A stretch of DNA of 21,496 bases, taken from positions 1-21,496 of IMG/VR virus record IMGVR_UViG_3300042731_005205; one strand, given 5' to 3'. The notes below the pieces were generated by a model. It ran no database searches, was not told the DNA's origin, and saw only the letters and a list, made by a program, of their open reading frames with translations. This stretch comes from a virus. The translations under genes and the position numbers were made by a program. Every line of letters starts with the position of its first letter. The stretch's first letter is position 1. Positions 1,453-21,496 of this stretch are shown here, piece by piece.

Positions 1453-1935
1453 GTGGCTTTTTTTAGTAGAGGATCAAATAAGATAAAAAGTCCTTATACT
1501 GTTAGGCATATGTATAAGGATTATATAAAAAATTTAGAGAAAGATAGTCCTTATTATATATCATATTCTACATATGTTAGATTGACTACTTCTTATTTTA
1601 AAAAAATTATTAATGTTATTTTAGAAGATTCTGATAAATTTAAGTTAATAAGTGGATTAGGAACTTTTCAAATAATTAAAAAGAAAATAAAACCTGAAAA
1701 TCAAGTTAAAAGATTTTATAGTACAGATTGGCATACTACTTTAGAATGTGGTAAAAAAGTTACACATTTAAATGAGCACAGTGATGGATATAAATATTTA
1801 TTTTACTGGAATAAAAGAAATGCAATGACTAAGAATATATCCAAGTATAGATTTATTCCTACTAGAACTGTAAAGCGTACTTTAGCTAAATATATTAAAA
1901 ATAGATTAAAAGATTATTTTGAGTATGATTTATAA
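1453..1935 (+). CDS. Small tail-cluster protein with HU/IHF-like signature
   Basis: This 160-residue basic protein starts at a GTG directly abutting the upstream TAA; the next in-frame ATG would remove 19 residues. Residues 14-64 look like a helical pair with DSPYYISYSTYVRL and an amphipathic helix. They are followed by KLISGLGTFQIIKKK (residues 64-78), which resembles the loop-and-strand signature of HU/IHF proteins (GFGTF followed by a basic strand). The C-terminal half is rich in Lys, Arg and Tyr (HSDGYKYLFYW, TRTVKRTLAKYIKNRLK). Genes labelled IHF subunit are typical of this place in crAss-like phages. Because it sits among tail genes, it may be a virion structural protein that reuses the IHF fold rather than a DNA-bending protein; that is inference. 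The next gene overlaps its 3' end by 11 bases. Confidence 0.6.
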   Translation: MAFFSRGSNKIKSPYTVRHMYKDYIKNLEKDSPYYISYSTYVRLTTSYFKKIINVILEDSDKFKLISGLGTFQIIKKKIKPENQVKRFYSTDWHTTLECGKKVTHLNEHSDGYKYLFYWNKRNAMTKNISKYRFIPTRTVKRTLAKYIKNRLKDYFEYDL

Positions 1936-2866
1936 ACAAATTTCTTCTAAACGGATAATATCAAAGGTATTAACGGATTCAAATATTCAAGAAGAAACCG
2001 TTCGTATTTCTGATATAGTAGAGTGGATTGGAGAAGCTGTAGAAAAGATTGGAGGGTTTGGTCAATATAATATAAAAGTTGCAGGGAAAGAAGGCGAACC
2101 TTTACTAACTGTAAGCAATTATCAGGCAGAGCTTCCAGACGATGTTTATAGAATATTAGGCATTGCATATTCTACTTCTCCTACTGGTAATTTTCTTCCT
2201 CTTAGATATAATTATAATTCTTTTGCAACTCGTCAACCTGTTACTGATTCTTCATCTTCTGGGTTTGTAGCTAGTGAGAGTACTCTTATTCAATTAGCTA
2301 TGGATTTATATAATTTAAGTTACGAAGATGCTTTAGAGTTGATAAATACAGATTCTATTACCAAAGAAAAATTAACCTCTTTGTTGAATATAGATAGTTT
2401 TAGAATTACAGACAATACAACAGATTTTTCATTTGATTATACTTATACTCTTAATAGTAATTATATAAAGTTAAATGTTCGTAACGGGTATTTAATGATA
2501 GCATATCAAGCTATACCTACTGATTCAGACGGATATCCTTTAATACCCGATGACCCGGGTTATATAGAGGCTGTATATTGGTATATAAGAGTTAAACTTT
2601 TGTATCCAGAATGGGTTTCAGGAAGAATAACGGATAGAGTATATTATCATGCTGAACATAAGTGGAATTTTTATTGCAAACAAGCTTATGCAAATGTTAT
2701 TATGCCTAATGCAGATCAGTTAGAAAGTATTAAAAATAAGTGGTTAGAGTTAGTGCCTGAATTAACTGATCATTCTACATTTTTTTCAACTTCTGGTCAA
2801 GAACAGAAAATTTATAATGATACTTTTTATAGAAATAGAGTAAATATTTTAACAGTTGGCTACTAA
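1925..2866 (+). CDS. crAss-like tail tube/ring protein, analogous to P22 gp4
   Basis: I choose the ATG at 1925 (313 residues) over the TTG two codons upstream; it overlaps the previous gene by 11 bases. The N-terminal half has the helix ISDIVEWIGEAVEKIGGFGQY followed by a beta domain containing AELPDDVYRILGIAY. The C-terminal half has the hallmark run PLIPDDPGYIEAVYWYI, then YPEWVSGRITDRVYYHAEHKW, then a final helix with QAYANVIMPNADQLESIKNKW and the polar end LVPELTDHSTFF. This arrangement is the one I know from the crAss-like tail protein compared with the P22 tail accessory factor gp4, a ring between the portal and the rest of the tail. The neighbouring muzzle gene supports this. The exact position in the tail barrel is not determined here. 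Confidence 0.75.
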   Translation: MIYKQISSKRIISKVLTDSNIQEETVRISDIVEWIGEAVEKIGGFGQYNIKVAGKEGEPLLTVSNYQAELPDDVYRILGIAYSTSPTGNFLPLRYNYNSFATRQPVTDSSSSGFVASESTLIQLAMDLYNLSYEDALELINTDSITKEKLTSLLNIDSFRITDNTTDFSFDYTYTLNSNYIKLNVRNGYLMIAYQAIPTDSDGYPLIPDDPGYIEAVYWYIRVKLLYPEWVSGRITDRVYYHAEHKWNFYCKQAYANVIMPNADQLESIKNKWLELVPELTDHSTFFSTSGQEQKIYNDTFYRNRVNILTVGY

Positions 2867-5800
2867 AGTTGTTACACACACTTTTAACGGTGGGATGAAC
2901 AAGGACTTTGATAAAAGTATCATTCCAAATAATTCTTTTTATCATGCTGAAAATTTTAGATTAGTTGCTGATAAAGAAGGTAAGAAGACTATTCTCAAAA
3001 ATAATAAGGGAATGTCTAATACTTATATTAAATTTCCTGTAACTGGAATACCGGTTACTGAGTATATTGTTGGGTATTGTTTAGTTAGGAATTATTTAGT
3101 TGTATTTACTTATGACGGTTCTTCAGTAAGTAGTATATATAAGGTAGAATTAGATGATAATGAAGAATTAGTTTCCGTTAGTACTGTTTTTGCTGATTAT
3201 GATACAGAAGATGGAAGTACTTTAGGGTTTTCTTTAAGTAACAGAGTAAAAGCAGTTGGTCGATATGAGAATGATGATTTAATTAATGTTTATTGGTGTG
3301 ATGGTAGCGAATTAAGTAGAAGAATAAATATTGCTACGAATAATACAACTGACGGACTACCTTATAGTGGAAGTAATGACTATGTATCTGTACATAAATT
3401 AGATTTTATAGATAAAGCCTATCTAAGAAAACCTGTAATAAATAAAATAACTGGTGGAAGTCTTATTACTGGCGTTGTTTATTATGCATATCAGTTTTTT
3501 AATTTGAACGGTAATGAAAGTTTGTATTCTCCCTTATCAGACAAGATAAGCGTTTCTACTTCATCATATGCTTTTGTTGATGCTTCAAAGTTTAGAGGAG
3601 GAGACAGTGGTGAGTATAGTGGAAAAGGGTTTAGACTAAGAATAGAAAATGATGATTCTTATGATTATGTTAGACTAATAAGAATTCATTATGAGGAATA
3701 TAATGGAATTCCTACTATTTCTATTGTTAAGGAAGTCGAAGTAACTACTGGTACTTATTTATATATTACTGATAATGGAGTTACGGTAAGTGAAATAAGT
3801 TTAGAGGATTTTGTAACTTATAGTAATATTTTATTTTCTGCTAAAGAAATTACTACTAAAAATGATTATTTATTATTTGGTAATATAGAAGAAGATACTT
3901 TTGAAGTTGATTTCGATGTTAGGTCTTATAGGTTTAATTCTAGCGGTGTAGCTAAGTTATACCAATCAGATGGAAGTTATTATTATGTATATGCTGCCGG
4001 GGTTACTAGAACAGGTCAAGGAGGTCCAGCTACTTTAGGAGATTGGGAGTACTTTACTTCAGGTTCTGTATATACAGGAACTCATGGAACTGGGTGGACT
4101 GTTCCGGAGGACGCTGACTGTATAAATTATTTTAATAATATTTCAGTTGAAGGGTATTATTATCAAAATGATGCTAGTACAGTTGGGGGTTCTGGATTGA
4201 ATGTAGAGTATGAATTTTTGTATGGTTATGGTTCAAATGTTATAACTATAGAATCTGATGCTTCTGTAACTAAAGGAGATATAAGAACTGGAGGAACTTA
4301 TTCTGCTGGCGATTCTGGCGCAGAAAGTTTAGTGTTGTCTCAAGATGGAGTTAATTCTTATACTACTTATGCTAACCCTTTTAATGAAGATATTGTAGGT
4401 TATCAGCCTGATGAGGTATATCGTTTTGCTGTAGTATGCGGAGATGCTAAAGGGAGAGAAGCTACTGCCAAATGGATTGGGGATATTAGAATGCCTAGGT
4501 TAGAGCATTATGCTTCTGGTAGTAGAATATATAGAAGTGGTACAGATATTGTAGCAAATATATTAAATATAAAGTTTACTATCAGTAATTTACCTAGTGA
4601 TGTAGAATATTTTAGAATAGTTAGAGCTGAAAGGACGAATGTCGATAAATCTGTGGTAGCATGTGGAGCTCTTAGTCATACTTATTATGATTCTGGGTTA
4701 AGTATGTATGTTTCTCCGATTGAAGCTAAATTATCTGGGGCTGCCGGATATTATGGAGGAGATAATCCTGATAATGATTTATTTTCTTTTATGTCCCCAG
4801 AAATAAATTATGGGCAATATCAATATACACAAGGGGATATGTTATATGTTTTATATGTTATGGATGATTATTGTAGTTATTATAGTACAGATAAATCTTT
4901 CATAAAATATAATTCTTATGTAAAACCTGGTACTTCAAATAGGCCTGTTTATGATATTGATGATTTAAAAATTCTTTCACCAAATCCGCCAACAGAAGAT
5001 ACAGAATATTCTATAGGAGTTTTTACTCCTTATGTTCATATGTGTACAGATAAAGGAGCTGATAGTCCTTTTTCAACTGATAAAGGTCCTTGTGGAACAG
5101 CTGCTATTTTAGATCTTACTTCTAATGTTACTGGACCAGATATTTATTATGCTGCTGATTTAACTAACGATCATTCTATATATTATGCTTGTATAAAAAG
5201 AAATGTAGATACTTCAAGATATGGGGGAATAACTTATACAGATAGATTTTTTAATGAATATTATCCCTGTTCAAACAGATATGATTCATCTTATGACGGG
5301 GTTCAGATAACAGTGTATGGAGGAGATTGTTATATAAATATGTTTGATCATCTTCGCTGTACTTATCATATAAATGAATCTTCTGGGGATAGGCGTATTC
5401 ATGTTATGTATTTTCCAGTGGAATCTCAAATTAATCTTGCATATGATCATGGAGATTCTTATCATAGAATAAAGGGTAAAGTTGATGCTACTTGGGTTAG
5501 AGAAACAGCAGGGGAACATGATACTGCTTCTGGAACATTTGTTCAAGATAATGATTATTATTTATATAATACTGTTTATTCAATTGAACCTAAAGTTGAG
5601 TCAAGAATTTCTGAAACTTCTTTAGATTTTGATTTAACTAAATTTGACACAAGGGTATTAGTTTCAGATAAAAAATACAATAATGAAATTAGTGATAGTT
5701 GGACAAAATTTAGAGCAAATAATTTTTTAGATGTTGATAGTAACTATGGAGAGTTAACTAACTTATTTAATTTTAAGGATAAAGTATTTTACTTTCAACC

Positions 5801-6794
5801 AAATGGTTTTGGAGTTCTCTCTGTAAATGAAAGGTCTTTGATTTCTGATAATAATACTAATCAATTAGTATTAGGTACTGGAGGTGTTTTAGATAGGTAT
5901 GATTATATTTCTAATACTTCTGGTTCTTCTAGTAGATTTGGAGTTGTAAAAAGTAAAAGAGGAATTTATTGGATTGATGAGAAACGTAAAGAAGTTTATT
6001 TTTTTAATGGTAATGAAAATAAAATTTCTAAGTTAAAAGGAGTAGATTCATATTTAAAGGGGTTAACTTCAATAGATTCTGTTGAAGGTACTTTTGATAA
6101 TACTTATGATGATGTTTTATTCTCTATAACTAATGATGGGTCGAAGGAAAATACTTTAGTATATAATGAATTAGATGGAGTGTTTTGTCCTTTTTTTACG
6201 TACCAACCTTTTATGTTTATTACGTTAGATAAAAATGTTCTTTCAATTGAGGAACAAAATAGTAGTGGAGTGTATAAACACAATGTTTCAGATACTCGTT
6301 GTAGTTATTATAACAATGGAGTTTCTGATTCAAAGGTTACTTTCATATGTAATGAAAATTATCCATTTATTAAGGTGTGGGACAATATTGAATATTTTTC
6401 AGAAGTTAATTATATAAACGATACTACCGGGGTTAGGAAAAACTTATTTGATACTACGTTTACATATGCAAATTTTTACAATGATTATCAAAATACTGAT
6501 ACATGGGAAATGAAAAGTAATATCAGTATGAACAATAATGTACTTAAAGAACTAGCTTTGAAAAGACGAGAAAGAAATTGGACATTTGGTATTCCAAGAA
6601 ACGCAGTTGATAAAGATGTATCTAATGATCCTGATATTTTTGATTCTTCAAATTTAGATACTACTCAAACTTTTAGAGAAAGAATGAGGAGTTCGTTTTT
6701 ATATTGTAGTTTTATATATGAAAATAATTCTTCTACTGGGTATGAATTTTCTATACCTTATATGAATATTAAATATAGAATATCTAATAGATAA
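2856..6794 (+). CDS. Tail stabilisation/muzzle protein (P22 gp10-like in position)
   Basis: This 1312-residue protein starts at TTG 2856. An in-frame TAA at 2850-2852 excludes an earlier start, and the next ATG would cut into the conserved N-terminus THTFNGGMNKDFDKSIIPNN. Family segments follow in order: the YQPDEVYRFAVVCGDAKGR run ending in WIGDIRMP (residues 515-547), FRIVRAERTNVDKSVVACG (around 590-610), and a beta-propeller-like region (about 936-1045) with DSWTKFRANNF, FYFQPNGFGVLSVNER, LVLGTGGVL (1004-1012) and GIYWIDEKRKEVYFFNG. Residues 370-500 are rich in Gly, Tyr and Ser and less conserved in appearance. In crAss-like phages the homologue, called the stabilisation protein and later the muzzle, closes the distal end of the short tail barrel. 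The gene overlaps its upstream neighbour by 11 bases and the downstream one by one base (TAATG). Confidence 0.88.
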   Translation: MATKVVTHTFNGGMNKDFDKSIIPNNSFYHAENFRLVADKEGKKTILKNNKGMSNTYIKFPVTGIPVTEYIVGYCLVRNYLVVFTYDGSSVSSIYKVELDDNEELVSVSTVFADYDTEDGSTLGFSLSNRVKAVGRYENDDLINVYWCDGSELSRRINIATNNTTDGLPYSGSNDYVSVHKLDFIDKAYLRKPVINKITGGSLITGVVYYAYQFFNLNGNESLYSPLSDKISVSTSSYAFVDASKFRGGDSGEYSGKGFRLRIENDDSYDYVRLIRIHYEEYNGIPTISIVKEVEVTTGTYLYITDNGVTVSEISLEDFVTYSNILFSAKEITTKNDYLLFGNIEEDTFEVDFDVRSYRFNSSGVAKLYQSDGSYYYVYAAGVTRTGQGGPATLGDWEYFTSGSVYTGTHGTGWTVPEDADCINYFNNISVEGYYYQNDASTVGGSGLNVEYEFLYGYGSNVITIESDASVTKGDIRTGGTYSAGDSGAESLVLSQDGVNSYTTYANPFNEDIVGYQPDEVYRFAVVCGDAKGREATAKWIGDIRMPRLEHYASGSRIYRSGTDIVANILNIKFTISNLPSDVEYFRIVRAERTNVDKSVVACGALSHTYYDSGLSMYVSPIEAKLSGAAGYYGGDNPDNDLFSFMSPEINYGQYQYTQGDMLYVLYVMDDYCSYYSTDKSFIKYNSYVKPGTSNRPVYDIDDLKILSPNPPTEDTEYSIGVFTPYVHMCTDKGADSPFSTDKGPCGTAAILDLTSNVTGPDIYYAADLTNDHSIYYACIKRNVDTSRYGGITYTDRFFNEYYPCSNRYDSSYDGVQITVYGGDCYINMFDHLRCTYHINESSGDRRIHVMYFPVESQINLAYDHGDSYHRIKGKVDATWVRETAGEHDTASGTFVQDNDYYLYNTVYSIEPKVESRISETSLDFDLTKFDTRVLVSDKKYNNEISDSWTKFRANNFLDVDSNYGELTNLFNFKDKVFYFQPNGFGVLSVNERSLISDNNTNQLVLGTGGVLDRYDYISNTSGSSSRFGVVKSKRGIYWIDEKRKEVYFFNGNENKISKLKGVDSYLKGLTSIDSVEGTFDNTYDDVLFSITNDGSKENTLVYNELDGVFCPFFTYQPFMFITLDKNVLSIEEQNSSGVYKHNVSDTRCSYYNNGVSDSKVTFICNENYPFIKVWDNIEYFSEVNYINDTTGVRKNLFDTTFTYANFYNDYQNTDTWEMKSNISMNNNVLKELALKRRERNWTFGIPRNAVDKDVSNDPDIFDSSNLDTTQTFRERMRSSFLYCSFIYENNSSTGYEFSIPYMNIKYRISNR

Positions 6795-8821
6795 TGGCTT
6801 GTAAAAGTAAACGAATAAGGCGAATGCAGTCTGGGGGAAATGTAAACCCTGTATCATTGATGTCTTCTGGAGCTAATCTTATTAATCAACTAGGCTCTAG
6901 TATTGGGGATTTAGTAGGTTTAAATGATTTGAGCGATGAAGGTTTTATGGATCCAAAGAAAGCTTTTGGTCAAGGGCTTTTAAAAAATATAGCGTTAGGA
7001 CCTCTGTCTTTTATTGGAGCTTTTGGCGCTAAGCGTAAGGCAAAAAAATACAATGAGGAGTTAGAAAGACAACATGCAATGCAGCGTGAGGCAATGGATC
7101 CGACTAGGTCTTCGTACAATCCTTATGTCCCAATAATGCAGGATGGTGGAATGACATCAGATGTGGTAGAACTAGAAAAAGGTGAAGTTTATAGGACTCC
7201 AGATGGTAAACTTTATAAAATACCAGACAGTGCTCCTTCCCATGCACAAGGAGGAGTTATTACTCAGTTACCTAGTGGAACTGATGTATTAGGAAAATTA
7301 AGACCAGGAGGAGATAAAACTTATAAACAATTAGGCTCTAAATTAAAAAAGCTTCAAAATAAATATGAGGAATCTTTGTTAGAGAATCCAGTAGGTATAA
7401 CATCTAATACTGCTGGTTTAATGTTAAATAAGATACAACGTAAGTTTGATGATTTATTTGAAGATCAACAAATACAAAATGGTGGAGAAAATAATATGGA
7501 AGAATTTGCTAAGGGAGGTAAATGGATTCAAAAAGCTACTGCCAGTATAAAACGTAGGGGAACTGAAGGAGTATGTACTGGTTCTAAATTTGGTAGTTCA
7601 AGTTGTCCTCCCGGGTCTAAAAGGTATAATTTAGCTAAAACTTTTCGTAAAATGGCTCGTAGTAGGAAAGGAGCTGAAGGTATGGAAGTATTTGCAGGTG
7701 GGGGATTATCTGGTGCAACAGACAGATATCCTAAAGGTAAAGGTAAAACTAAGGCTTATCCTATGGTTAAATCAGGTGATTTTGCTGGTGGAGGAAGATC
7801 ATATCCTATACCTACTAAGGCAGATGCAGTTGATGCATTACGTTTAGCTGGACTGCATCATAGACCAGATGTTAAAGCAAAAGTATATCATAAATATCCT
7901 TCTTTGAAAAAAGGACAAGGGGGGATGAAAATATTACCAGGATACGAAGAAACTGAAGGTGCTTCTTTTTTCACCGAGAATCCTCAGTATATGAGAGACT
8001 TTCAGTCTTTTTATGGGATATCTCCTGATAATATATATGGACCAGAGACAAATAAAATGTTTCAAACTTATGGAAAAGATTATACAAGTAATTTGTTAAC
8101 TCCTGTAACTCCCATTTCTGGAAAAATTAATCAAGGAAATCCATCTTTACCAATGACTCAAGGGTTGACTGATTATTTGAATACTATTCCTACTGCTCCA
8201 ACTAGAGGTTTTGATTTTTCTAATATTCCTTACGAAGATATATTTAATACTGGTGCTACATTAGCTCCTATAGCTTATAATATCAGCCAAGGTTTAAAAA
8301 GTCCTACAAGGTTAAATGCTAGGGATTTTCAGAATCCTTATATAAGCGATATAAGAAATACATTGAAAAATAGAAAATTCAATATAAATCCTATATTAGA
8401 ACGAAACAGATTAGCTCAATCTACGTATAATTATGGTGTGAGGCAAGCAGCTCCCAGTAAAGCAAGGTACTTAGCTAATCTACAGACTGGTCAAGCAGCA
8501 AGACAACGAGCTGATGCTGAAGCAATTGCTCAAAAACAAAATGTAGAAAATCAATATTTAAGGGATCAGGCTTTATTTGATATGTATTTAGGTAAAGATA
8601 TTGCTACTACAAGATATAATGTAGCTGACATTAATTTAAGGAATGAAGCTGCTAGGAGAAAAATGATGGGTGCTGGTCTTTCTGGAATACAGCAATATGC
8701 TCAGCAAAGGAAGTTAATGAAAAATATGACTCAAAGAGATAAAGAAAAACTTGCATTATTAAGTTCTCTTATACCAAGTCTTTTATATAATTCTGATTTA
8801 GGTTTTACTTTTAAAGATTAA
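6794..8821 (+). CDS. crAss-like internal/cargo virion protein, multi-motif
   Basis: This 675-residue protein starts at an ATG overlapping the previous stop by one base. It is a chain of small motifs joined by Gly-rich linkers. After a basic N-terminus (KSKRIRR) come a Gly/Ala-rich hydrophobic segment (residues 60-80) and VELEKGEVYRTPDGKLYKIP with AQGGVITQLPSGTDVLG (124-167). A Lys/Arg-rich stretch with two Cys follows, starting GGKWIQKATASIKRRGTEG (241-290), then DFAGGGRSYPIPTKADAVD with a basic helix (329-375), resembling the phage domain DUF6582. A segment around YGISPDNIYGPETNKMF (396-432) resembles a peptidoglycan-binding repeat. The last third is helical and charged. The position between the muzzle gene and the RNA polymerase fits an internal or tail-associated protein released with the DNA. 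Function is inferred from position; homology of the small motifs needs profile searches. Confidence 0.65.
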   Translation: MACKSKRIRRMQSGGNVNPVSLMSSGANLINQLGSSIGDLVGLNDLSDEGFMDPKKAFGQGLLKNIALGPLSFIGAFGAKRKAKKYNEELERQHAMQREAMDPTRSSYNPYVPIMQDGGMTSDVVELEKGEVYRTPDGKLYKIPDSAPSHAQGGVITQLPSGTDVLGKLRPGGDKTYKQLGSKLKKLQNKYEESLLENPVGITSNTAGLMLNKIQRKFDDLFEDQQIQNGGENNMEEFAKGGKWIQKATASIKRRGTEGVCTGSKFGSSSCPPGSKRYNLAKTFRKMARSRKGAEGMEVFAGGGLSGATDRYPKGKGKTKAYPMVKSGDFAGGGRSYPIPTKADAVDALRLAGLHHRPDVKAKVYHKYPSLKKGQGGMKILPGYEETEGASFFTENPQYMRDFQSFYGISPDNIYGPETNKMFQTYGKDYTSNLLTPVTPISGKINQGNPSLPMTQGLTDYLNTIPTAPTRGFDFSNIPYEDIFNTGATLAPIAYNISQGLKSPTRLNARDFQNPYISDIRNTLKNRKFNINPILERNRLAQSTYNYGVRQAAPSKARYLANLQTGQAARQRADAEAIAQKQNVENQYLRDQALFDMYLGKDIATTRYNVADINLRNEAARRKMMGAGLSGIQQYAQQRKLMKNMTQRDKEKLALLSSLIPSLLYNSDLGFTFKD

Positions 8822-10911: not shown

Positions 10912-13900
10912 ATGGCTTTAAAATTTCCAGAAGATGAAGTTTTGGGTACGGAACCAGTAGATCCTACTACTGGTTTACTTTTTCCTGAAGATGAACCTTA
11001 TTCGACTTTTACAGGTACAGTAGAAAGTACTTTTGATATAAGGCCTTATAAACGATTTTTTGAAGGGAAAGTACATCCTGAATTTGGCCAAGATTATTTA
11101 GATAGAGTTAGGGCTGAGAGACAATCAGGTACTGAACAATTTGGGGCTTTTCTTAATCAAGCAATTGTTGGGGAAATAGTTGGTGGTACTTTGGAAGGTG
11201 CTGGGTATTTGTTAGATGTTGATCAAACTGTAAATATACTTAACGATGTTGAACAAGATTGGGGTAATTGGTTAAGTGATATAGGTAAAGATCTTCGAAC
11301 TTGGTCACAAGAAGCTACTCCTATTTATACTACATACGAGCCTGGTCAATTTAGACCTGATAAATGGTCTTGGTGGATGTCAAACGGTCCTTCAGTTGCT
11401 AGTACATTGTCTTTATTAGTACCTACATTAGGCGCCACAAAAGGTATTAGTATGTTAGGCAAAGCGGCTGATATATCCTTAAATATGGGTAAGAAGGCTA
11501 AGTGGCTCTCCACTGGTATCGGCCAGGCTGTTGTTTCTAGACTTATGGAGAATGGTATGGAAGCTGCTGGGAAATATGACGAAATTGAACAACGAAATCT
11601 TCAAGCAGGCATGTCTCCTAATGAAGCTAAAAAGAATGCTTCAATTGCTGCTTCAGATATATGGAATAAAAACTGGGTACTTATGGCTCAGGATATTCCA
11701 CAATATTTAATTTTAGGTAAAGCGTTTGGCAAAGCTAGTAAACCTGCTACTTTAGAGATGAGTAAAAGTATGGGGTTTGATTTAAGCCCTATTTTAGCTC
11801 GTAAGGGGGCACTTCTTTTAGAAGATGCTATTACAGAAGGTGGTGAAGAAGTAATGCAGTATATCGTCTCTGAGAACGCTGATTACTTGTCTCGTGCTTC
11901 ATTAGACCCCACTGTTACAAAAAAATCAATTAGTGATTATTTAGGGGAAGGTGAGTTATGGACTAGTTTTACTATGGGAGCTTTAGGGTCTACAGTATTT
12001 CAAACTGTTGGTAGACGTATAAATAAAGCTATATTTGGGGAAGATCCGGTTGACCAGGCTAGAATTAATAATATTAATACTTGGGCTCCCTTAATAAAGT
12101 TATATGGTACATCTGCTAGGATAGCTGAAGAGAGGGGTGATATTTTAGGAGCTCAATCTTTGAAAGTTAGGCATGCTTCTGAAATGGCTGCCAAAGCTTC
12201 AGAAGTAGGTAACTTACAATTTTCTATAGATTTTCTTACTGCTATAAAAAATGCATCAACTGAAGAATTACAAAATTTTAATTTAGATGAAGCAGATGCC
12301 GAGTTTATAAAAACTAATTATGATGAGCTAGTAGATGTTACTAAGAAGGTAGGAAATTATTTTGAATCTTATACTAAAGATAATTATGATTTTGACATAG
12401 CTTCAAGATTAGCAAGAGCTGAAGTTGAACGAGAATTATTAATGGAACTATCAGAAAAGTATAGGGGAGAAGCTCAAGCATTAAATTCTAAGATACCAAT
12501 TTATACAGATAAGGATGATAAAGGTAATTCTATACTATCTATTACTGGTAAAACATTAGTAAATTTATCTAGTCAACTTGCTCGTAAATGGAGGATTCTT
12601 ACTCAAACAAATATTTCTTTAAAAAGTGATTATATTGATAATCCCGTTTATTATCAAAATAGGGGAGGAGAAATTGAAAAGGAAATTCTTGACCTAAAGA
12701 AAGAAATTTCAAAAATATATATAGATGAATACAGTAATGAAGACAAGAAGAAAGATTCAAAATATTTAAACATTTCAAAAAAAGGAGATAGTGTTTATAT
12801 AAATATAAGAGAGGATAAAGAATTTACTCCTTTTAAAGATCAACAAGAATTATATGCAAAAGCAGATTTCACCAGAGAAGGAGCTCTTATACAAGAAAAT
12901 ACAATAAAAGCTCAGAAAGAATTACAAGCTGAACGTAATGCTGGTACAAAACAAAAGCCTGTTACACCAACGGAGCCTGTTACAGAACCTGAAGAAAAGC
13001 CTGTAGTTAAGCCTGAAGAAATTTCTGAAGAACAGCGTGTTGCTGATATTGAAAATCGTAGGCGTATTACAAATGAAAATTTTTATGTAGAACAAGATGA
13101 AAAAGGATTATATGAGTACTATATTAATCCTGAAGGAAGAACCGAAGAAATAAGGGGAAAATCAGAAAAGGATATACGTGATAAAATAAACGCTAAGTAT
13201 GACGCAGAATTAGAAGAAATTAAACCAGGAATTAAAGAAAAAAGGAAAAAAACAAAAGAAAAAGCTGAGAATATAATTAAAAAAGAACCTGCTAAAGCAG
13301 CTAAAAATCTTTTAATTTCTACTCCTTTTAGTAAGATAGAAGATATATCTTCTATTGTTGGTACTAAAGTTACATATGCAAATAAGGAGTGGCAAGTTGT
13401 AACAGATGGTTCTGAAGTTTTATTGGAAGATGAAAAAGGTAGTAGGTATTTTGTTGCTTACTCCAATGCTGATATTTCTTTAGAGAGTAAAGGCATACAA
13501 CCTATTCAAGGGGATGAAATTTTTGATATAAAAGTATCTATTATTACTGATAACGTAGGATTGAATATTCAAGGTAAAGAACATACTTTTGCTACTTATA
13601 ATATATTAGAATCAATTACTGAAGATAAAGAAGGTAATCCTATTTTTGTTACCTTACTAGATGATAAAAAAAATAAAGTAACTTATGAAGCAGTTGATAA
13701 TGATAATTTAGTGAATGAAATAGCTTCAGCTATTGCTATAATAGAAGAATCTAGGGTAGCTGCTTTAAACAAGTTTAGGGAATCTGAACAACATCCTGTA
13801 TTTTATAAATTTGAAAATAAAGAGTATAGGGTATATTATAATGGTAGAAATTGGTTACCTGTTAGTCTTTCTTCAAGGGTTGTCATGAAAGATTCTCCAT

Positions 13901-16900
13901 TTAAGAAAAGATTATTAAATAACTTTTTTACGGATTTAAATATTATTATAAACGATGAAATTACCGAAAATATTAGACAAGGATCTTCGAAAGAAATTAA
14001 TAACTCTCCCGACGTTACAGCGTTATTTATATCTGAGGAAGATACAATTAAAAAGGTTGAGTCGACTACTGAATCCAGGGATAAAGGGTCAAAGTCTGCA
14101 AAGGATGTAGTTGATGCTAAAGCAGAAAGTTTAACTGACGCTTTATTAGAAGCAGAGGCTATGGCGGAACAACGAGCCTTTGAGGCTTCATTAGAAGGTT
14201 ATAGAGACATTGAAGTAACTGATGAAGTCCCCGTTATTACAAAAGATCAAACGTACGTGTATGAGCCTGAAAATAACCTCTATGGCGATTTTACTCAATT
14301 GGTATATTTAGCTAATAAAGAAAAGGAATTAAATGAGTATTTATCAAATCCAGATAATGATTTAAAAAATAATTATATAGAATTTGAGATAGATTATGAT
14401 TCTGATTATGCTAAAGAATGGTGGGCAAATAAAACAGAGTTAAAAACTAAAGTTCAAAAAGGAAATAAATTTGTTTTAGAGATTGAAGATATAAATAATT
14501 ATAACTCATTCATAGACGAAGTTCCTGTAATAGGTAAATTGTATGATTCAAAAGGTAATCAAATAGAAGGACATCTTTATTTACGTAGATCTTCTAATAC
14601 AGATGTACTTAGTCCTGAAAAGTATCAGGGAGATATAAGAGATAAAACTAGGGAAGTAAGATCAAAAGTACTAAATTCTATTTTAGAAGGTAATAAAGTA
14701 AGAATTAAAAGACTTAGTAAAGATAGGGGTTACCCAAATGTTGTAGCTGAAAATATTTTAGTAAAGGATGCTCTGCGTATAGATACTTCAAAAGCTGAGT
14801 TAGGTGTTAGTACAAAAGATGGTAGTATAAGGGGATTGAATAATGAAATATTTGAAGGTATAAGTAGTTCTACTGGGGGTAATGTTTTTATAAGAACTAA
14901 TTTAACTAGTAACAAAGAATATAGAGCGTTAAATTTAAACCCTAGTAAACTTTCTAATGAGCATGCCGGTGTAGTATTTGATGTATTTTCTAACTTACTG
15001 TCAAGACCTGGGACAAGGCCCAGTGTTAAACGTCAAATAAAAGTTGCAAATGTAGAAGGGTTAGCTACAGCTGAAAAAATACTAGATTTATTAGTTAATT
15101 ATGGACCCCATACTAAACAAAAGAAAACGGTAGTTAATCCGAATCTCATTGACAAACAGTTGTATTATGAAGGGAAAGTTTTACATTATGGCAACAAATC
15201 TTTTAACTTTGTTGGCAAGAATGAAAACCAAATAGCACAAGAGAGACAAAAATTTATTGATTGGGCTGTAATATATAAAAACTATGGGATTAGTTTTAAT
15301 CATTTTGGTACTACTTTTGAGAATAATTTTTCAATAGGTTCGTTAAAAGGTAAAGAAGGACAAACCTATGAAAGTTATGTATTAGATAATGGTTTTGTAA
15401 AAACTAATGCAAGATATAATCTTAAGACTAATAGTGCTTATCATAAGCCAGCTTTGTTTGTACATTTTGATAATATTAATTCTACTGAAACTATAACTGA
15501 AAAACCTACTAAAGAAGAAGAAAAACCGAAAGGGGAAACTTTAGATGATATTAGAAATGAGTTTTGGAGTATCAATCATTTTTATAAAAAGGAAGTAGAT
15601 TACCAAAAGATAGATTTAAATAAAGAATTAAAACATGTAAAACGTCAAATTGGCAAAAATGTTTCAATTCAAGTAGTTAATGATTTAATTAGGGTTTCAA
15701 ATGAAATTGGTAATGAAACTGCTTTTGGGTTAGTAAAAAATGCTGCTATAAAAATAAGTACAGAAGCCAAAGAAGGTACTGGGTATCATGAGGCTTTTCA
15801 TTTTGTAACTTTATATTATTTGACTGATAAGCAACGAGCTGAACTTTATGATGACGCTAGGTTATCATATAATTTAGGAGAATCTTCTGATAAATATGTT
15901 AATGAAAAATTAGCGGAAGAATATGAAATTTATATACTGACTAATCAAAAAGTAAAACCTTTATCTGAGAAGATAGCAGATTTTTTTGCAAAATTATGGA
16001 ATTTTATTAAGTCTGTATTCGTAGATAATACTAAGATTTCTGATTTAACAGTTAAAAAATTATTTAAATCTATTGAACAAAATAAATTTTCAAGAGCTAA
16101 GGTTAAACCAGAAAATTTAGAAAAGTTTGGGAGTATAGACTATCTTAAAAAAATAGCTGGATTTAATAATGAACAAATACGTAATATTACTAGTGGTTTA
16201 ATATATCAAGTATTAGTTTTAAATGGTGTAAGTAATATTAATAATATAGATAACATAAAATATCAGCCTGTATATGATTGGGTATTAAATAGAAAAAATA
16301 GATTTAAAGAATTAGCTGAAAAAATTTCTAAAGATAAAAGTAGACAAGAGGAATATAAAGAAACAATTAGGTTACAAGAAGTATATCAAGACATATTAAA
16401 CAATTTTCCAAAATTTGTCGAATATATGGATGATATGTTACTTGGAATGAATATTCATAAAAGGATAGAAAATGATGAAGATGATGTAGCTGCTTATAAC
16501 GATGAAAATGAGGATTATGAATCAAATAATTTTGAAAAATATCAAAAAGCTTCCTATGAGTATTCAGGTAGAGACAACATACTTTCTAATATAAAGATGT
16601 TTATTGCTACTATACCTGTTGAAAGAAAGATAGATTCATACTCAGCTATGCCTATATTTGAAGATTTTAATACATCATGGTCTAAATTGATGTTTTTACT
16701 TTGGAATTCTTCAAATATATATGAAATGATAGATACCTTAAAATTAAAAGCTAATAATTCAACAGATGATTATTACAATACTCTATTGTATGGCATAACA
16801 AATGCTAAAGGAGATTTAATAAAGCCTGGTTTAATAAATGGAGATGAGGAGTTGAGGACTCAGTTTCAGGTATCTGTTATGAAACATCGTCATAATTTTA

Positions 16901-19900
16901 TAAACTTTTTATACAACAAGAATACAAAAGGGATGTTAGTAGTTGATGCTAACGTACGAAAACTTTCAAGTCAGTATTTGTTTGATTGGAATAATAGATT
17001 AGTAGAAGATGATGCTTTTTTTGAAGGTTCTGAACGAAAATATAATAAACAACATTTGTTAAAAATTATTTCAGAATATACTTCCTTTTCAAAGATAGTA
17101 CGTGAAGAATTTTCTAGGAATGGTTTAACTTTACCTAACATACAACAACATACTACAAAATTATTATCTTTATTAAATAAGTTACATATAAATATAACAG
17201 AGGATACTTTAGTAGCTTTTCTTACTCAAAAGAAAGGAAGTTACGATAAAAATTTTATTGATTTATTAAGCGGTAAAAATTCTTTAGAACTTGTTTTTGG
17301 TACTAAGGGCACTTTATGGAAATTGTTTTCAAATCAAAATGTACCTAAAAATGCGACTATAGATAATGTTTATAGTTATGAAAGTATTATAAGGGATTTT
17401 GCTAATTTACAGGCTGAACTTTCACCTGATGCATTAGATGATACTATATTAGGTCCTGACAATAACATATATTATGTTTACTCACAGAATACTTATTTAA
17501 CAGATACTCTAAGGGATTTAGTAAAAGATCCTGATTTAATTACTAAAAGAAGTAAAGTTGTTTACAATAAAAATTCTAGGTTTTATAAGGAATTAATCGA
17601 AGGTACTAAACCTCAAGTTACTACAATGTCAGCTCTTAGAATTCCTGGTATATCTAATACTGGGTATTTAGAGTTATCTAGGGATATGGATTATTTAGTA
17701 AAACTTAATGCGGTTTTACAGGGTTATTTACCATTACCTACTTTAGCTGACAGGCGTTCATTTTTCTTTTATAAGGGATTTAAAACATTAAAAGAAGAAT
17801 TTTCTGACATACAATTAGACGAGAAAGGTAATATAGTAATACCTAAAAAAGTAATAGATGTTTTTAAAGGGTATGCAGAAGATGAGTATAATAGGATAAA
17901 TCAAGCAAAACAACAAATTGAAGACGCTAAGAAGAACGGATATAAAGGTTTAATAGAGAATTATCATTATGAAAAATTTGATAGTTATGGTAACCCTGTT
18001 GAAGGTAATGCTTTAAAATTTGTTTTATTTAAAGAGTTTAATAAAACAACTTATAATTTAAATAAAGTAGAAAAAATAATAAAAGATAGAATTAGAGATT
18101 CTTTGAATTATGCTAAAGAATTAGGGGTTATTAATATTAAATTAATTGGTGGAAAAGAAATATATACAAATAATTTACTTGATAAAAAAGTAATAAAAGG
18201 TTATAAAGATAAGTATGGATTAGGGGAAAGTGAAGCAATATACACAATAATTAGTGAATTTACTACTTCTTATATGATGTCTATTATTGAAACTCAAAAG
18301 TTGTTATCAGGCGATCCTGCTTTTTATAAACATAGTAAAGTTAATGGTGATATTGTTGATGACTTTATTAAAAGAGTTAGTGTGCTAGCTGCTCCTGGAG
18401 ATAATTACAGGACAGACTATAAAGAAGGAGAATTTGCTGGTAAAACTAAGTATAATGTAGTTACGTTGGCTACTCAAAAATATAATAGTGAAGAAATATA
18501 TAATAAATTAAAACCAAAATTTATAAAATTATTAAAAAAAATAGACCCAAATATATCCGATCAAGCAGCTCTATTATTAGCCGAAGATAAATTGAAAGCT
18601 TATAAAAATGTAGATGTAACTGATGCTCAGGTGTATATTACTCCTGAGTTTTATAGAGAGCTTTCTATTAGAATAGGAGAATGGTCTAAAGGTAAACAGG
18701 ATGCTTTTGACTTATTAATGTCTGATAAAGAATTAACTCCAGAAGAAGAGTTGAAAGCTTCAGGAGTAATAATGCAACCTCTTAAGCCGGTATATTTTGG
18801 AATCGAACAAACAAACAATTTAAATATACCTGTATATGACAAAATGTCAATGGCTGTTTTATTACCTAGATATATAGATAAAAAATCAAAAATAAGACCT
18901 CTTATTGATAAGATGAGAGAAGAAGGGATTGATGTCGTTAAATTTGATTCTGCTGTTAAAGTTGGTAATAGGGACAGTATAAAGTATTTTAAATCTGATG
19001 GTAGTGTTAATACTACAGCTTTAAAAGATATTAAAAAGGTAGTTCATAAACAAAGTTTTAGAAATTTAAGAAGACAACAAATAACTGATGTACATGAAGC
19101 TTCTAAAAGATTAATTGGAACGCAGCTTAGAAAAATGGTATACGCTAACCTTCATCTTGAAAAAGAAGTATATAAATTTAGAGGTAGAGATATTACAGGT
19201 AAAGAATTAGCTAATATAATTAGTAAAACATTTAATGCGTTATCAAATAAAGGCAAAGCTGAATTTAAAGAAAAACTAGGTATAGATGAAAACGATAAAG
19301 TAGATGAAGTTAAACTTCGTCGAATGTTAAGAAGTGATGCTGTTAAAGGTAATATGCCTTATAATGTTATAGAAGCTTTAGAAGAAGGAATTCAGTTAGA
19401 CACTTTACCAGATAGAAAATGGGTAGAGAGTAGACTTATTGCTCTTAATACTAAACATACTATTCATTTAAAATCAAAAGGGGATGCATACATTCAAGTA
19501 TCAAACTTTGGACTACATACTGTAGAAAGCGATAGACTAAATTTAATAGATTCTTCTGGTAAAATGGAAGTAATGATGTCTGTACAAATGTTTAAAGATG
19601 TTATTCCTAATTACAATAAAAAGACTTTTGAACAAAAGAAGAAATGGTTAGAGAAGAATTTAGAAGGAATTGGTTATCGTATTCCTACTCAAGGACCTAA
19701 TTCTGTTGTTGTATTTTCAGTTAAAGATTTTTTGCCAGAAAATACAGGTAATACCATTATATTACCATCAGAATTTACTGCATTAACAGGGTCTGACTTT
19801 GATATTGATAAGATATTTATAGCTCGTTATAATTATAACAGAAAAGGAAATAAGGTAGAATTTATTGAAGGGGATGAAGGTGATTTAGTTACAGAGGCTT

Positions 19901-21496
19901 CTACTTGGGAACGTATATACCAACAATTATATCAAGATAAAATATTTTTAAGGGAAGAGTTACAAGAAGTAAAAGAAAAAGTAGCTTCAAAAATATTACT
20001 TAATAAAGAAAAATATGGTATTTTATTTGCTGAAGAATTAACAAATGAGAATTATAAAAGTATGGTAAATACTTTAATGTCTTTACGACAAGAAGTATTA
20101 GATGATTGGAATATTAAAAATATAACCCCCGAACAAGTAGATTCATTACTTGAAGATTTAAATAAAATTCCTGATTTTGATGAATGGGTTAATAAAAATA
20201 AAAAAACTTCTGTTTATGATTTAAATTCGAAAGAAGCTGTAGAAAACAGATTATTAGATACTATGTTTACAGTATTTACTAATGAGGAACATTTAATGGA
20301 TACTAAAACTCCTTTAGATCGTTTTACTAGTGATTTGAAAGAAATAGCTAGTGAATTAAAAAAATTAGAAGGAAAAACTAAATCTTTACAGTCATTAGAA
20401 GGAATAGCTCCAACATATCAAATAGAAGCTAAAGTTAATTATACGGAAGGTAAAGGGGGTATTGGGCCATTTGCATTAAATAATGTTCATCACGCATTAG
20501 CTCAAATATCTGATTTAAAGATAAAATTTAGGGAATATTTTAAAGATGGAAGTTTTAGGGAATTTCTTATAGGCAATAATGACGGTAAGTGGGTAAATGT
20601 AGGAGGAATAATTGGTAAAGACGGTATAAATATATTAGATTGGTTTTCAGCTCTAATTAGTGCTCATGTTGATGTAGCTAAAGATCCTTATATTTTTGAT
20701 ATAAATGTAGTACCAACTACTTATAATGTTGTTTCATTGTTACTTCGATCAGGTATTGGTAAGAATACTTTTTGGTTTATAAATCAACCTCTTATAAAAG
20801 ATAACAAATATGATTTGGAAGATAAAAATAAGCTTTATAATATTGCTGAAAAAAATAAACTTAAGGCAGTATATCTTGCTAAAAAGGAAGGTATGTCTAA
20901 GGAAGATGTAGAAAAAATATTTAATTATAATGCTTTACCAAAGAATGCTTTAGGATACAGTGAAAATACTTATAAGAATTTTATAAAAGGTGATAAAGAT
21001 TGGAAGTGGTATGCTACTCAAGGAGGTTTATTAAAAGCATACGCTAGAATGCTTGAGCCTGCTAATTTATTAAGTAAAATAGTATTAAGTACTAGAACTG
21101 ATACTAGAGGAATAGGTAAAAATTTAGCTGCTGTAAAAAGATATAATGTAAATTTAGAAGAATTAATGTTAAGAGATGATGTTCTAAATCTTGATAAGTT
21201 TATGAATGAATCTTTCTTACAAACTTTTCATGATAATAGTGCGGCTTACATTTCTACTGTATATTCAGGGTTAATGATATCTTCAACTAAACAATTTAAT
21301 ACATTAGTAGATAGGATTATAAGTGATACAAATGTAAATAGTCGAAATCCTCGTATTATGAAAGTAATAGAAGATGAATTATTTACTTCTATAGTATCAG
21401 AATATTTTACTTCACTTGATGGTTTCGGTTTATCTAAAGAAGATATATTAAATTTATTTGAAGGTAAAAATTCTTTACCAAAAAGATTATATGATT
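10912..21496 (+). CDS. Giant cargo-metallopeptidase-RNA polymerase fusion protein (3' truncated)
   Basis: From ATG 10912 the frame stays open to the right edge: 3528 codons with no in-frame TAA, TAG or TGA (checked line by line), and the gene continues beyond the window. The parts in order are: Gly-rich hydrophobic cargo-like segments (about 70-365); a helical charged region; a Pro/Glu/Lys linker (680-709); a beta-rich module (about 800-1045); a Ser/Lys/Glu linker with a helix (1048-1098); a further module to about 1525; a second Pro/Glu/Lys linker (1526-1543); a HEAFH domain (1544-1703); and a crAss-type RNA polymerase from roughly 1700 on, with LPTLADRRS (2275-2283), GDPAFYK (2467-2473), FDSAVK (2678-2683), IGTQLRK (2735-2741), IGYRIPTQGPNS (2920-2931), DFDID (2962-2966), AHVDVAKDP (3251-3259) and RTDTRGIGK (3395-3403). 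Relatives such as gp66 of phage phi14:2 are packaged in the virion and transcribe early genes after ejection. That role is inferred here. Confidence 0.9.
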   Translation, partial: MALKFPEDEVLGTEPVDPTTGLLFPEDEPYSTFTGTVESTFDIRPYKRFFEGKVHPEFGQDYLDRVRAERQSGTEQFGAFLNQAIVGEIVGGTLEGAGYLLDVDQTVNILNDVEQDWGNWLSDIGKDLRTWSQEATPIYTTYEPGQFRPDKWSWWMSNGPSVASTLSLLVPTLGATKGISMLGKAADISLNMGKKAKWLSTGIGQAVVSRLMENGMEAAGKYDEIEQRNLQAGMSPNEAKKNASIAASDIWNKNWVLMAQDIPQYLILGKAFGKASKPATLEMSKSMGFDLSPILARKGALLLEDAITEGGEEVMQYIVSENADYLSRASLDPTVTKKSISDYLGEGELWTSFTMGALGSTVFQTVGRRINKAIFGEDPVDQARINNINTWAPLIKLYGTSARIAEERGDILGAQSLKVRHASEMAAKASEVGNLQFSIDFLTAIKNASTEELQNFNLDEADAEFIKTNYDELVDVTKKVGNYFESYTKDNYDFDIASRLARAEVERELLMELSEKYRGEAQALNSKIPIYTDKDDKGNSILSITGKTLVNLSSQLARKWRILTQTNISLKSDYIDNPVYYQNRGGEIEKEILDLKKEISKIYIDEYSNEDKKKDSKYLNISKKGDSVYINIREDKEFTPFKDQQELYAKADFTREGALIQENTIKAQKELQAERNAGTKQKPVTPTEPVTEPEEKPVVKPEEISEEQRVADIENRRRITNENFYVEQDEKGLYEYYINPEGRTEEIRGKSEKDIRDKINAKYDAELEEIKPGIKEKRKKTKEKAENIIKKEPAKAAKNLLISTPFSKIEDISSIVGTKVTYANKEWQVVTDGSEVLLEDEKGSRYFVAYSNADISLESKGIQPIQGDEIFDIKVSIITDNVGLNIQGKEHTFATYNILESITEDKEGNPIFVTLLDDKKNKVTYEAVDNDNLVNEIASAIAIIEESRVAALNKFRESEQHPVFYKFENKEYRVYYNGRNWLPVSLSSRVVMKDSPFKKRLLNNFFTDLNIIINDEITENIRQGSSKEINNSPDVTALFISEEDTIKKVESTTESRDKGSKSAKDVVDAKAESLTDALLEAEAMAEQRAFEASLEGYRDIEVTDEVPVITKDQTYVYEPENNLYGDFTQLVYLANKEKELNEYLSNPDNDLKNNYIEFEIDYDSDYAKEWWANKTELKTKVQKGNKFVLEIEDINNYNSFIDEVPVIGKLYDSKGNQIEGHLYLRRSSNTDVLSPEKYQGDIRDKTREVRSKVLNSILEGNKVRIKRLSKDRGYPNVVAENILVKDALRIDTSKAELGVSTKDGSIRGLNNEIFEGISSSTGGNVFIRTNLTSNKEYRALNLNPSKLSNEHAGVVFDVFSNLLSRPGTRPSVKRQIKVANVEGLATAEKILDLLVNYGPHTKQKKTVVNPNLIDKQLYYEGKVLHYGNKSFNFVGKNENQIAQERQKFIDWAVIYKNYGISFNHFGTTFENNFSIGSLKGKEGQTYESYVLDNGFVKTNARYNLKTNSAYHKPALFVHFDNINSTETITEKPTKEEEKPKGETLDDIRNEFWSINHFYKKEVDYQKIDLNKELKHVKRQIGKNVSIQVVNDLIRVSNEIGNETAFGLVKNAAIKISTEAKEGTGYHEAFHFVTLYYLTDKQRAELYDDARLSYNLGESSDKYVNEKLAEEYEIYILTNQKVKPLSEKIADFFAKLWNFIKSVFVDNTKISDLTVKKLFKSIEQNKFSRAKVKPENLEKFGSIDYLKKIAGFNNEQIRNITSGLIYQVLVLNGVSNINNIDNIKYQPVYDWVLNRKNRFKELAEKISKDKSRQEEYKETIRLQEVYQDILNNFPKFVEYMDDMLLGMNIHKRIENDEDDVAAYNDENEDYESNNFEKYQKASYEYSGRDNILSNIKMFIATIPVERKIDSYSAMPIFEDFNTSWSKLMFLLWNSSNIYEMIDTLKLKANNSTDDYYNTLLYGITNAKGDLIKPGLINGDEELRTQFQVSVMKHRHNFINFLYNKNTKGMLVVDANVRKLSSQYLFDWNNRLVEDDAFFEGSERKYNKQHLLKIISEYTSFSKIVREEFSRNGLTLPNIQQHTTKLLSLLNKLHINITEDTLVAFLTQKKGSYDKNFIDLLSGKNSLELVFGTKGTLWKLFSNQNVPKNATIDNVYSYESIIRDFANLQAELSPDALDDTILGPDNNIYYVYSQNTYLTDTLRDLVKDPDLITKRSKVVYNKNSRFYKELIEGTKPQVTTMSALRIPGISNTGYLELSRDMDYLVKLNAVLQGYLPLPTLADRRSFFFYKGFKTLKEEFSDIQLDEKGNIVIPKKVIDVFKGYAEDEYNRINQAKQQIEDAKKNGYKGLIENYHYEKFDSYGNPVEGNALKFVLFKEFNKTTYNLNKVEKIIKDRIRDSLNYAKELGVINIKLIGGKEIYTNNLLDKKVIKGYKDKYGLGESEAIYTIISEFTTSYMMSIIETQKLLSGDPAFYKHSKVNGDIVDDFIKRVSVLAAPGDNYRTDYKEGEFAGKTKYNVVTLATQKYNSEEIYNKLKPKFIKLLKKIDPNISDQAALLLAEDKLKAYKNVDVTDAQVYITPEFYRELSIRIGEWSKGKQDAFDLLMSDKELTPEEELKASGVIMQPLKPVYFGIEQTNNLNIPVYDKMSMAVLLPRYIDKKSKIRPLIDKMREEGIDVVKFDSAVKVGNRDSIKYFKSDGSVNTTALKDIKKVVHKQSFRNLRRQQITDVHEASKRLIGTQLRKMVYANLHLEKEVYKFRGRDITGKELANIISKTFNALSNKGKAEFKEKLGIDENDKVDEVKLRRMLRSDAVKGNMPYNVIEALEEGIQLDTLPDRKWVESRLIALNTKHTIHLKSKGDAYIQVSNFGLHTVESDRLNLIDSSGKMEVMMSVQMFKDVIPNYNKKTFEQKKKWLEKNLEGIGYRIPTQGPNSVVVFSVKDFLPENTGNTIILPSEFTALTGSDFDIDKIFIARYNYNRKGNKVEFIEGDEGDLVTEASTWERIYQQLYQDKIFLREELQEVKEKVASKILLNKEKYGILFAEELTNENYKSMVNTLMSLRQEVLDDWNIKNITPEQVDSLLEDLNKIPDFDEWVNKNKKTSVYDLNSKEAVENRLLDTMFTVFTNEEHLMDTKTPLDRFTSDLKEIASELKKLEGKTKSLQSLEGIAPTYQIEAKVNYTEGKGGIGPFALNNVHHALAQISDLKIKFREYFKDGSFREFLIGNNDGKWVNVGGIIGKDGINILDWFSALISAHVDVAKDPYIFDINVVPTTYNVVSLLLRSGIGKNTFWFINQPLIKDNKYDLEDKNKLYNIAEKNKLKAVYLAKKEGMSKEDVEKIFNYNALPKNALGYSENTYKNFIKGDKDWKWYATQGGLLKAYARMLEPANLLSKIVLSTRTDTRGIGKNLAAVKRYNVNLEELMLRDDVLNLDKFMNESFLQTFHDNSAAYISTVYSGLMISSTKQFNTLVDRIISDTNVNSRNPRIMKVIEDELFTSIVSEYFTSLDGFGLSKEDILNLFEGKNSLPKRLYD
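11119..11460 (+). other. Gly-rich hydrophobic N-terminal segments of the giant protein
   Basis: Residues 70-183 contain FGAFLNQAIVGEIVGGTLEG with a further GAGYLLD (glycine-zipper-like spacing), an aromatic cluster (KWSWWMSNGP), and the apolar run PSVASTLSLLVPTLGATKG. None looks like a standard signal peptide. Similar segments in phage internal proteins are thought to interact with membranes during DNA delivery, so a role in crossing the host envelope is plausible but unproven here. Confidence 0.4.
12949..13038 (+). other. Pro/Glu/Lys/Thr-rich inter-module linker 1
   Basis: Residues 680-709 are almost only Pro, Glu, Lys, Val and Thr (KPVTPTEPVTEPEEKPVVKP and on). This is low-complexity, surely disordered sequence that separates the N-terminal cargo-like module from the next module. 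It could be a flexible tether or a cleavage region. Confidence 0.6.
15487..15540 (+). other. Pro/Glu/Lys-rich inter-module linker 2
   Basis: Residues 1526-1543 (ETITEKPTKEEEKPKGET) resemble linker 1 in composition and stand directly before the HEAFH domain. This marks a domain border and, speculatively, a place where the metallopeptidase-polymerase part could be separated from the upstream modules. Confidence 0.6.
15541..16020 (+). other. Zincin-type metallopeptidase domain (HEAFH) within the giant protein
   Basis: The segment leads through AFGLVKNAAIKIS into GTGYHEAFHFVTLYYL. HEAFH (15787-15801, residues 1626-1630) is a full HExxH zinc-binding and catalytic motif in a hydrophobic helix. About 40 residues later the helix EKLAEEYEIYIL offers Glu1669 or Glu1670 as a third, gluzincin-like zinc ligand. 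It is followed by ADFFAKLWNFIKSVF, a short amphipathic helix. All residues needed for activity are present, but the substrate is unknown; self-processing, cleavage of other virion proteins or a host target are all possible. Confidence 0.7.
18781..19140 (+). other. Probable first double-psi beta-barrel region of the RNA polymerase
   Basis: Residues 2624-2743 carry KPVYFGIEQ, PVYDKMSMAVLLPRYI, IDVVKFDSAVK, SFRNLRRQQ and IGTQLRK. In two-barrel polymerases the barrel before the catalytic Asp barrel supplies Lys/Arg residues to the active site. The conserved basic and Lys positions here (for example K2683 in SAVK and R2740/K2741) are candidates. The assignment rests on position before the DFDID barrel and on family resemblance; a structure prediction would settle it. 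Confidence 0.45.
19621..19851 (+). other. Catalytic double-psi beta-barrel of RNA polymerase (DFDID)
   Basis: Residues 2904-2980 read IGYRIPTQGPNSVVVF, then about 30 residues, then LTGSDFDIDKIFIARY. DFDID (19795-19809; Asp2962, 2964, 2966) matches the catalytic triad of crAss-like virion RNA polymerases and corresponds to DFDGD of cellular beta' subunits and DxDGD of QDE-1-like RNA polymerases. The upstream RIPT parallels the R-PT motif that precedes NADFDGD in beta'. The spacing and hydrophobic strands fit an intact Mg2+-binding barrel, so the enzyme is probably active. Confidence 0.85.

Follow-up and report, generated by a model that had tools for sequence, protein, structure and literature searches.

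Does a single phage gene join a virion cargo protein, a protease-like domain and an RNA polymerase in one chain, and is such a gene an oddity of one virus or a common arrangement among its relatives? We examined this in the window, by which we mean the whole stretch of DNA analysed, a complete IMG/VR record of 21,496 bases whose contig ends within the giant gene. The tail channel of crassviruses is narrower than 50 angstroms, and the passage and activation of a polymerase of several hundred kilodaltons is an open question in these phages (PMC10172136). We assign a probability of roughly 0.83 to the reading that the gene encodes a fused crassvirus virion transcription cargo, in which an RNAP-associated protein is followed by a zincin-type domain and a two-barrel RNA polymerase. 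This reading is carried by the observed architecture, homology and synteny of the gene, the spread of the fused state among relatives, and the conserved polymerase and zincin motifs.

Genomic context

Tail ring protein 2, tail ring protein 1 and the muzzle protein follow one another in the window (Table 1), placing the virus in the Crassvirales by Pfam matches and synteny. The order agrees with that of Suoliviridae, where ring and muzzle genes are followed by C1, C2, the giant gene and a third gene; complete genomes of that family encode a ring protein, a muzzle protein and two proteins of ~540-745 residues, followed by a giant gene (4,328-5,794 codons) and a gene for the third protein (1,381-2,043). 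In all Suoliviridae examined, the giant gene occupies the identical place after the ring, muzzle and cargo genes. In the RNAP tree, the window falls in a clade of 10 rows, all of them fused (support 97), nested in a 35-row group to which every Suoliviridae row belongs; the window carries no terminase or portal gene. A DNA-level search of phages with the window returned no matches. Upstream of ring 2, positions 3-746 encode the C-terminal portion of what may be a tail spike or fibre; it contains beta-helix-like repeats and gave no PHROG match.

Table 1. Features of the window, with residues numbered along the giant protein unless stated otherwise
Feature	Position	Strand	Basis or remark
Tail ring protein 2	748..1452	+	Pfam CrAss_Ring_2
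Tail ring protein 1	1919..2866	+	Pfam CrAss_Ring_1
Crassvirus muzzle protein	2856..6794	+	Pfam crAss_MUZ, E=9e-202
Cargo protein C1 homologue (crAss001 gp45; residues 300-377, E=3.8e-21)	6794..8821	+	
Second cargo-position protein, 685 aa	8832..10889	+	Family of the pre-giant gene of window-clade loci and Suoliviridae
Giant ORF (predicted front cargo protein, zincin and virion RNA polymerase)	10912..21495	+	ATG start
Module A (residues 44-392), all-helical	11041..12087	+	
Stretch without detectable relatives (residues 393-1135)	12088..14316	+	Pieces 400-720 and 720-1130
Module D (residues 1136-1538)	14317..15525	+	Homology to front proteins
Zincin-type domain (residues ~1566-1710)	15607..16041	+	Motif, AF2 model
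HEAFH motif (residues 1626-1630)	15787..15801	+	
Glu1665, candidate third ligand	15904-15906	+	
Break interval in separate-gene relatives (residues ~1700-1870)	16009..16521	+	Profile comparison
Predicted virion RNA polymerase, phi14:2 gp66 / crAss001 gp50 type	16039..21495	+	C-terminal part missing
DFDID catalytic motif (residues 2962-2966)	19795..19809	+	

Integrity of the giant reading frame

The giant ORF spans 3528 codons with no stop, its 3' end open beyond the contig, a run with a chance of ~1e-151 in random sequence of the window's base composition; in the remaining forward frames we counted 342 and 599 stops, respectively. The frequency of G at codon position 1 stays at ~0.28-0.37 in each 1500-base block, and because this codon-position signal is constant along the whole frame, a hidden frameshift is excluded. 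ORF calling and codon periodicity thereby confirm the proposal, made from the sequence alone, of a gene of at least 3528 codons that runs past the window, and neither the periodicity nor the stop counts in the other frames indicates a missed frameshift or stop. An assembly or sequencing artefact that deleted a real stop between two genes might also yield a long frame, and the source is a single metagenomic contig with its 3' end missing; however, the periodicity is unbroken across the ORF, and the identical fused frame recurs in dozens of further contigs and complete genomes, which makes this explanation exceedingly unlikely. Homologous genes carry the same modules, likewise in one single frame. 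In cr4_1, cr109_1, cr273_1 and cr52_1 that frame requires TAG to be read as sense, while the giant gene of the window contains no in-frame TAG.

After DFDID the window protein continues for 566 residues, compared with 1,144-1,388 in complete clade members (L021 excepted). Judged from these relatives, the complete protein would be expected to reach ~4,100-4,350 residues, which suggests that some 600-800 are missing.

The polymerase and its boundary with the front protein

The DFDID motif had led to the rear of the protein being called an RNA polymerase, and this was borne out by homology that covers the polymerase body, with a match to the phi14:2 structure 6VR4 at E=3.8e-61 (chain residues 812-1428 and 1484-1804) and matches to 143 phage records, the best being cr4_1 at 31% across the whole query. 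The similarity is not limited to the motif but extends, in the profile match, from gp66 residue 62. Among nine diverse polymerases we counted 40 invariant columns, including the three Asp of SDFDIDK (residues 2961-2967); Lys 2683 and Lys 2741, upstream of DFDID, are also invariant in the alignment and are candidates for the catalytic lysines of the second barrel. Pfam and PHROGs searches with pieces of the giant protein gave almost nothing besides phrog_16227, a virion protein family of 4401 positions that covers the DFDID region. On this homology, the rear is a genuine phi14:2 gp66-type RNA polymerase well past the DFDID motif.

The spacing of 1336 residues between HEAFH and DFDID had been likened to the length upstream of DFDID in the phi14:2 enzyme. 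That length is right (DFDID stands at residue 1361 of 2180 in gp66), but the agreement is a near coincidence, since the gp66 N-terminus has ~60 other residues replacing the zincin. We rejected a polymerase starting at HEAFH, because both the profile alignment, in which gp66 residues 62-249 fall on a stretch starting ~80 residues past HEAFH, and the ends of separate genes place the motif in the front protein. This stretch is also where crAss001 gp47 and the front gene of locus L063 come to an end, and in L063 the gene for the polymerase starts near window residue 1870; together with the gp66 profile, this points to a natural break at about residues 1700-1870. Judged by these alignments, the front protein ends with the HEAFH domain, and the start of the polymerase lies near this interval. 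The sequence-only reading, which fused a protein of ~1500 residues ahead of the polymerase, was right about its presence, but the front protein is ~1700 residues long and includes HEAFH.

Modules of the front protein

The view that the N-terminal region resembles virion cargo is supported by homology to the N-terminus of crAss001 gp47, a protein detected in virions by mass spectrometry (PMC10172136). Module A is shared with crAss001 gp47, p-crAssphage gp45, crAss002 gp32 and cr108_1 gp54, as well as with separate upstream genes of phi14:2-type phages; after iteration, the E values against p-crAssphage gp45, crAss002 gp32 and crAss001 gp47 range from 1e-63 to 1e-109. Its predicted structure best matched, among viral models, a p-crAssphage-type 'RNAP associated protein fused to zincin protease', while a fold search in PDB gave no matches, and the module was undetected in the Suoliviridae front regions compared. 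Module D is common to the fused relatives and to separate upstream genes (L046, L047, L057, L079 and L082). By homology, the front of the window protein corresponds to crAss001 gp47 and p-crAssphage gp45, and its rear to phi14:2 gp66 and crAss001 gp50.

Between these two conserved modules sit ~740 residues without detectable relatives; when both pieces of this stretch were tested separately, they matched the window alone. Part of the front protein may therefore have another role.

The zincin-type domain

HEAFH had been taken to mark a protease-like domain, a claim now supported in the form of an HExxH domain with an invariant metal-ligand pattern. The His, Glu and His of HExxH and the downstream Glu are invariant in 35 of 35 aligned sequences, at a mean column identity of 25% over these 35 members, which argues that the metal site is under selection. 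The AF2 model of the region (mean pLDDT 83.6 over 260 residues) consists of strands, the HExxH helix and then a helix bearing the Glu. It had no PDB match at E<=0.001, and a profile match to PPEP-1/Zmp1 was sub-threshold (E about 0.1); as a solved-structure match is absent, the label zincin rests on the motif, the secondary structure and the published annotation of p-crAssphage gp45 ('putative RNAP associated protein fused to zincin protease').

HExxH is absent from 12 of 16 separate-gene loci compared with 10 of 61 fused loci, and nine of the latter ten carry HExxE. The association between fusion and an intact HExxH that we sought was not significant (3-4 independent contrasts, several counter-examples), and given so few contrasts and these counter-examples, we treat the link as a lead and not as a result. 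The HExxE group, mostly HEAFE (L052, L060, L066, L068, L074, L083, L090, L092 and L094), mostly retains the region of the downstream Glu. In the phi14:2-type separate clade, the zincin was undetected in either gene, front or polymerase.

Fused and separate arrangements among relatives

A single-sequence search of IMG/VR gave no matches, and the loci compared came from a polymerase-alignment search. Among the 77 classifiable rows of the RNAP tree (best 80 of 488 IMG/VR loci plus annotated genomes, a sample seeded from the window's group that favours its kin), 61 are fused and 16 separate. Fused genes with a visible start encode 2,889-4,461 residues ahead of DFDID, versus mostly 1,337-1,501 in the separate class; the latter has, in nearly all cases, an adjoining upstream gene of ~1,400-2,050 codons, mostly a front protein. 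The state changes four times on the tree, at least three of these changes falling on well-supported branches, and since the tree is unrooted, gain and loss of fusion read alike.

At least four partitions of the front, polymerase and third proteins exist. All three are separate in phi14:2 and crAss001; front and polymerase are fused and the third separate in Suoliviridae and the window clade; the front is separate and the polymerase fused to the third in Intestiviridae; and in locus L021 a single ORF of 5,547 residues around the DFDID motif unites the front protein and the polymerase with the third, RNAP-associated protein. We did not find this comparison stated in the literature searched.

The fusion is not unique, as the giant gene occurs in all Suoliviridae examined and most loci compared are fused; among them, a stand-alone enzyme like that of phi14:2 is the less common form. 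Thus, comparison with other crAss-like gene boundaries recovered the proposed fusion but not its status as an exception with an 'extra' protein in front. Giant transcription proteins are a signature of crAss-like phages (PMC7886860) and reach up to ~6000 aa (PMC10136315), and the window is a new, divergent example of these already described proteins. The comparison also suggests a likely function for giant genes of Suoliviridae whose current labels are hypothetical protein, exonuclease V, DNA helicase or nuclear-pore-like. Four such genes, in NC_055872, NC_055868, NC_055892 and NC_055888 (L009, L010, L011 and L014), hide a polymerase under the annotations exonuclease V, DNA helicase, DprA-like and nuclear pore complex protein-like.

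Several relatives have interrupted genes. The giant frame of L084 is broken ~627 residues before DFDID (a frameshift, an intron or an assembly error), while the closely related L074 and L090 have an unbroken frame. Insertions lie within the DFDID codons of L016 (cr108_1; 28591-28909), L038 (about 11156-12060) and L089 (about 11171-12300). The first is a group I intron (Rfam RF00028, 80 bits), and the other two contain LAGLIDADG-like open frames and had no Rfam match. Their split points differ, being after GSD in L016 and L089 and after GSDFD in L038. Frameshifts in the DFDID motif have been described for the zeta group (Yutin 2021).

Delivery and possible processing of the fused protein

In crAss001, gp47, gp49 and gp50 are all present in virions, and the homologues of both halves of the giant protein are thought to exit through the tail partly unfolded (PMC10172136). 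For phi14:2, g065-g068 were annotated from virion MS/MS, and gp66 is the early-gene polymerase (PMC7886860, PMC10136315). By analogy with these two phages, the window protein would lie inside the capsid close to the portal, next to the C1 cargo protein, pass down the tail in a partly unfolded state, and refold in the host to transcribe early genes; we found no proteomic data on virions of a phage with the fused gene. Fusion could tie polymerase delivery to the ejected protein itself, as the sequence-only reading proposed. Separate-gene relatives also carry the front protein and the polymerase in the virion, and since the three transcription modules are found in several combinations, some fused and some separate, delivery probably depends little on whether they are joined.

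The zincin-type domain raises the question of whether the chain stays whole. It might cut the chain just behind itself (~1700-1870), in the maturing capsid or after entry, so that an autoprocessing polyprotein yields a free polymerase, as in phi14:2. Its position directly ahead of the polymerase, its invariant metal ligands in an otherwise divergent alignment, the frequent absence of HExxH from separate-gene loci and the phi14:2-type clade without a detectable zincin all speak for such processing. Conversely, crAss001, p-crAssphage, crAss002 and L063 retain HExxH although their front gene is separate and the polymerase needs no cut to be free of it, HExxE replaces the motif in one fused group, and the association with fusion is not significant over its 3-4 independent contrasts; we consider autoprocessing unlikely. 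More doubtful still is its general form, in which crAss-like cargo would be a self-processing polyprotein whose zincin detaches the polymerase from the portion concerned with ejection, so that the protease could be lost once a lineage had split the genes. We would sooner entertain, though at somewhat less than even odds, a zincin whose target at entry is the host envelope or some host protein, with fusion as a delivery convenience and the chain uncut. Retention of the domain in separate front proteins (HEAFH in crAss001 gp47, HESLH in p-crAssphage gp45) is consistent with such a role, as is the conserved HExxH of N4 vRNAP, a giant phage polymerase that is likewise ejected but belongs to a different type (PMC12633501); against it, no substrate of the zincin is known, and phi14:2-type phages, in which the domain is undetected, still infect. 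The occurrence of one chain in most relatives compared and of separate genes in others offers natural pairs for tests of cleavage and covalent linkage.

Comparison with known systems

Among the closest counterparts are the giants of Suoliviridae (delta crAss-like), for example cr4_1 gp26, cr1_1 gp076, cr118_1 gp14 and cr50_1 gp059, single ORFs of 4.3-5.8 thousand residues in which the zincin precedes DFDID and the same neighbours stand in the same order; they differ from the window protein in sequence (about 24-36% identity), and several use TAG as a sense codon. In p-crAssphage (Intestiviridae), the N-terminus of gp45 matches module A and its HESLH lies in the C-terminal part, while gp44 is the catalytic polymerase; unlike in the window, front and polymerase are separate, and the third RNAP protein is the fusion partner of the polymerase. 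The window polymerase aligns with residues ~62-1804 of the phi14:2 gp66 enzyme (PDB 6VR4), but gp67, gp66 and gp65 are three separate adjoining genes, and no zincin was found between front and polymerase. In crAss001, gp47 combines module A with a C-terminal HEAFH domain, 184 residues from the protein end, and gp50 is the polymerase; here gp47, gp50 and gp49 are separate genes, and gp47 lies on the strand opposite gp50. Also compared were coliphage N4 vRNAP (gp50), a single-subunit polymerase type whose HExxH stands behind the polymerase and not ahead of it, and P23-45 gp96, which resembles the window in fusing a virion polymerase to a virion protein, the tape measure protein (PMC10770324), but has its polymerase at the N-terminus and belongs to a different two-barrel lineage in a long-tailed phage.
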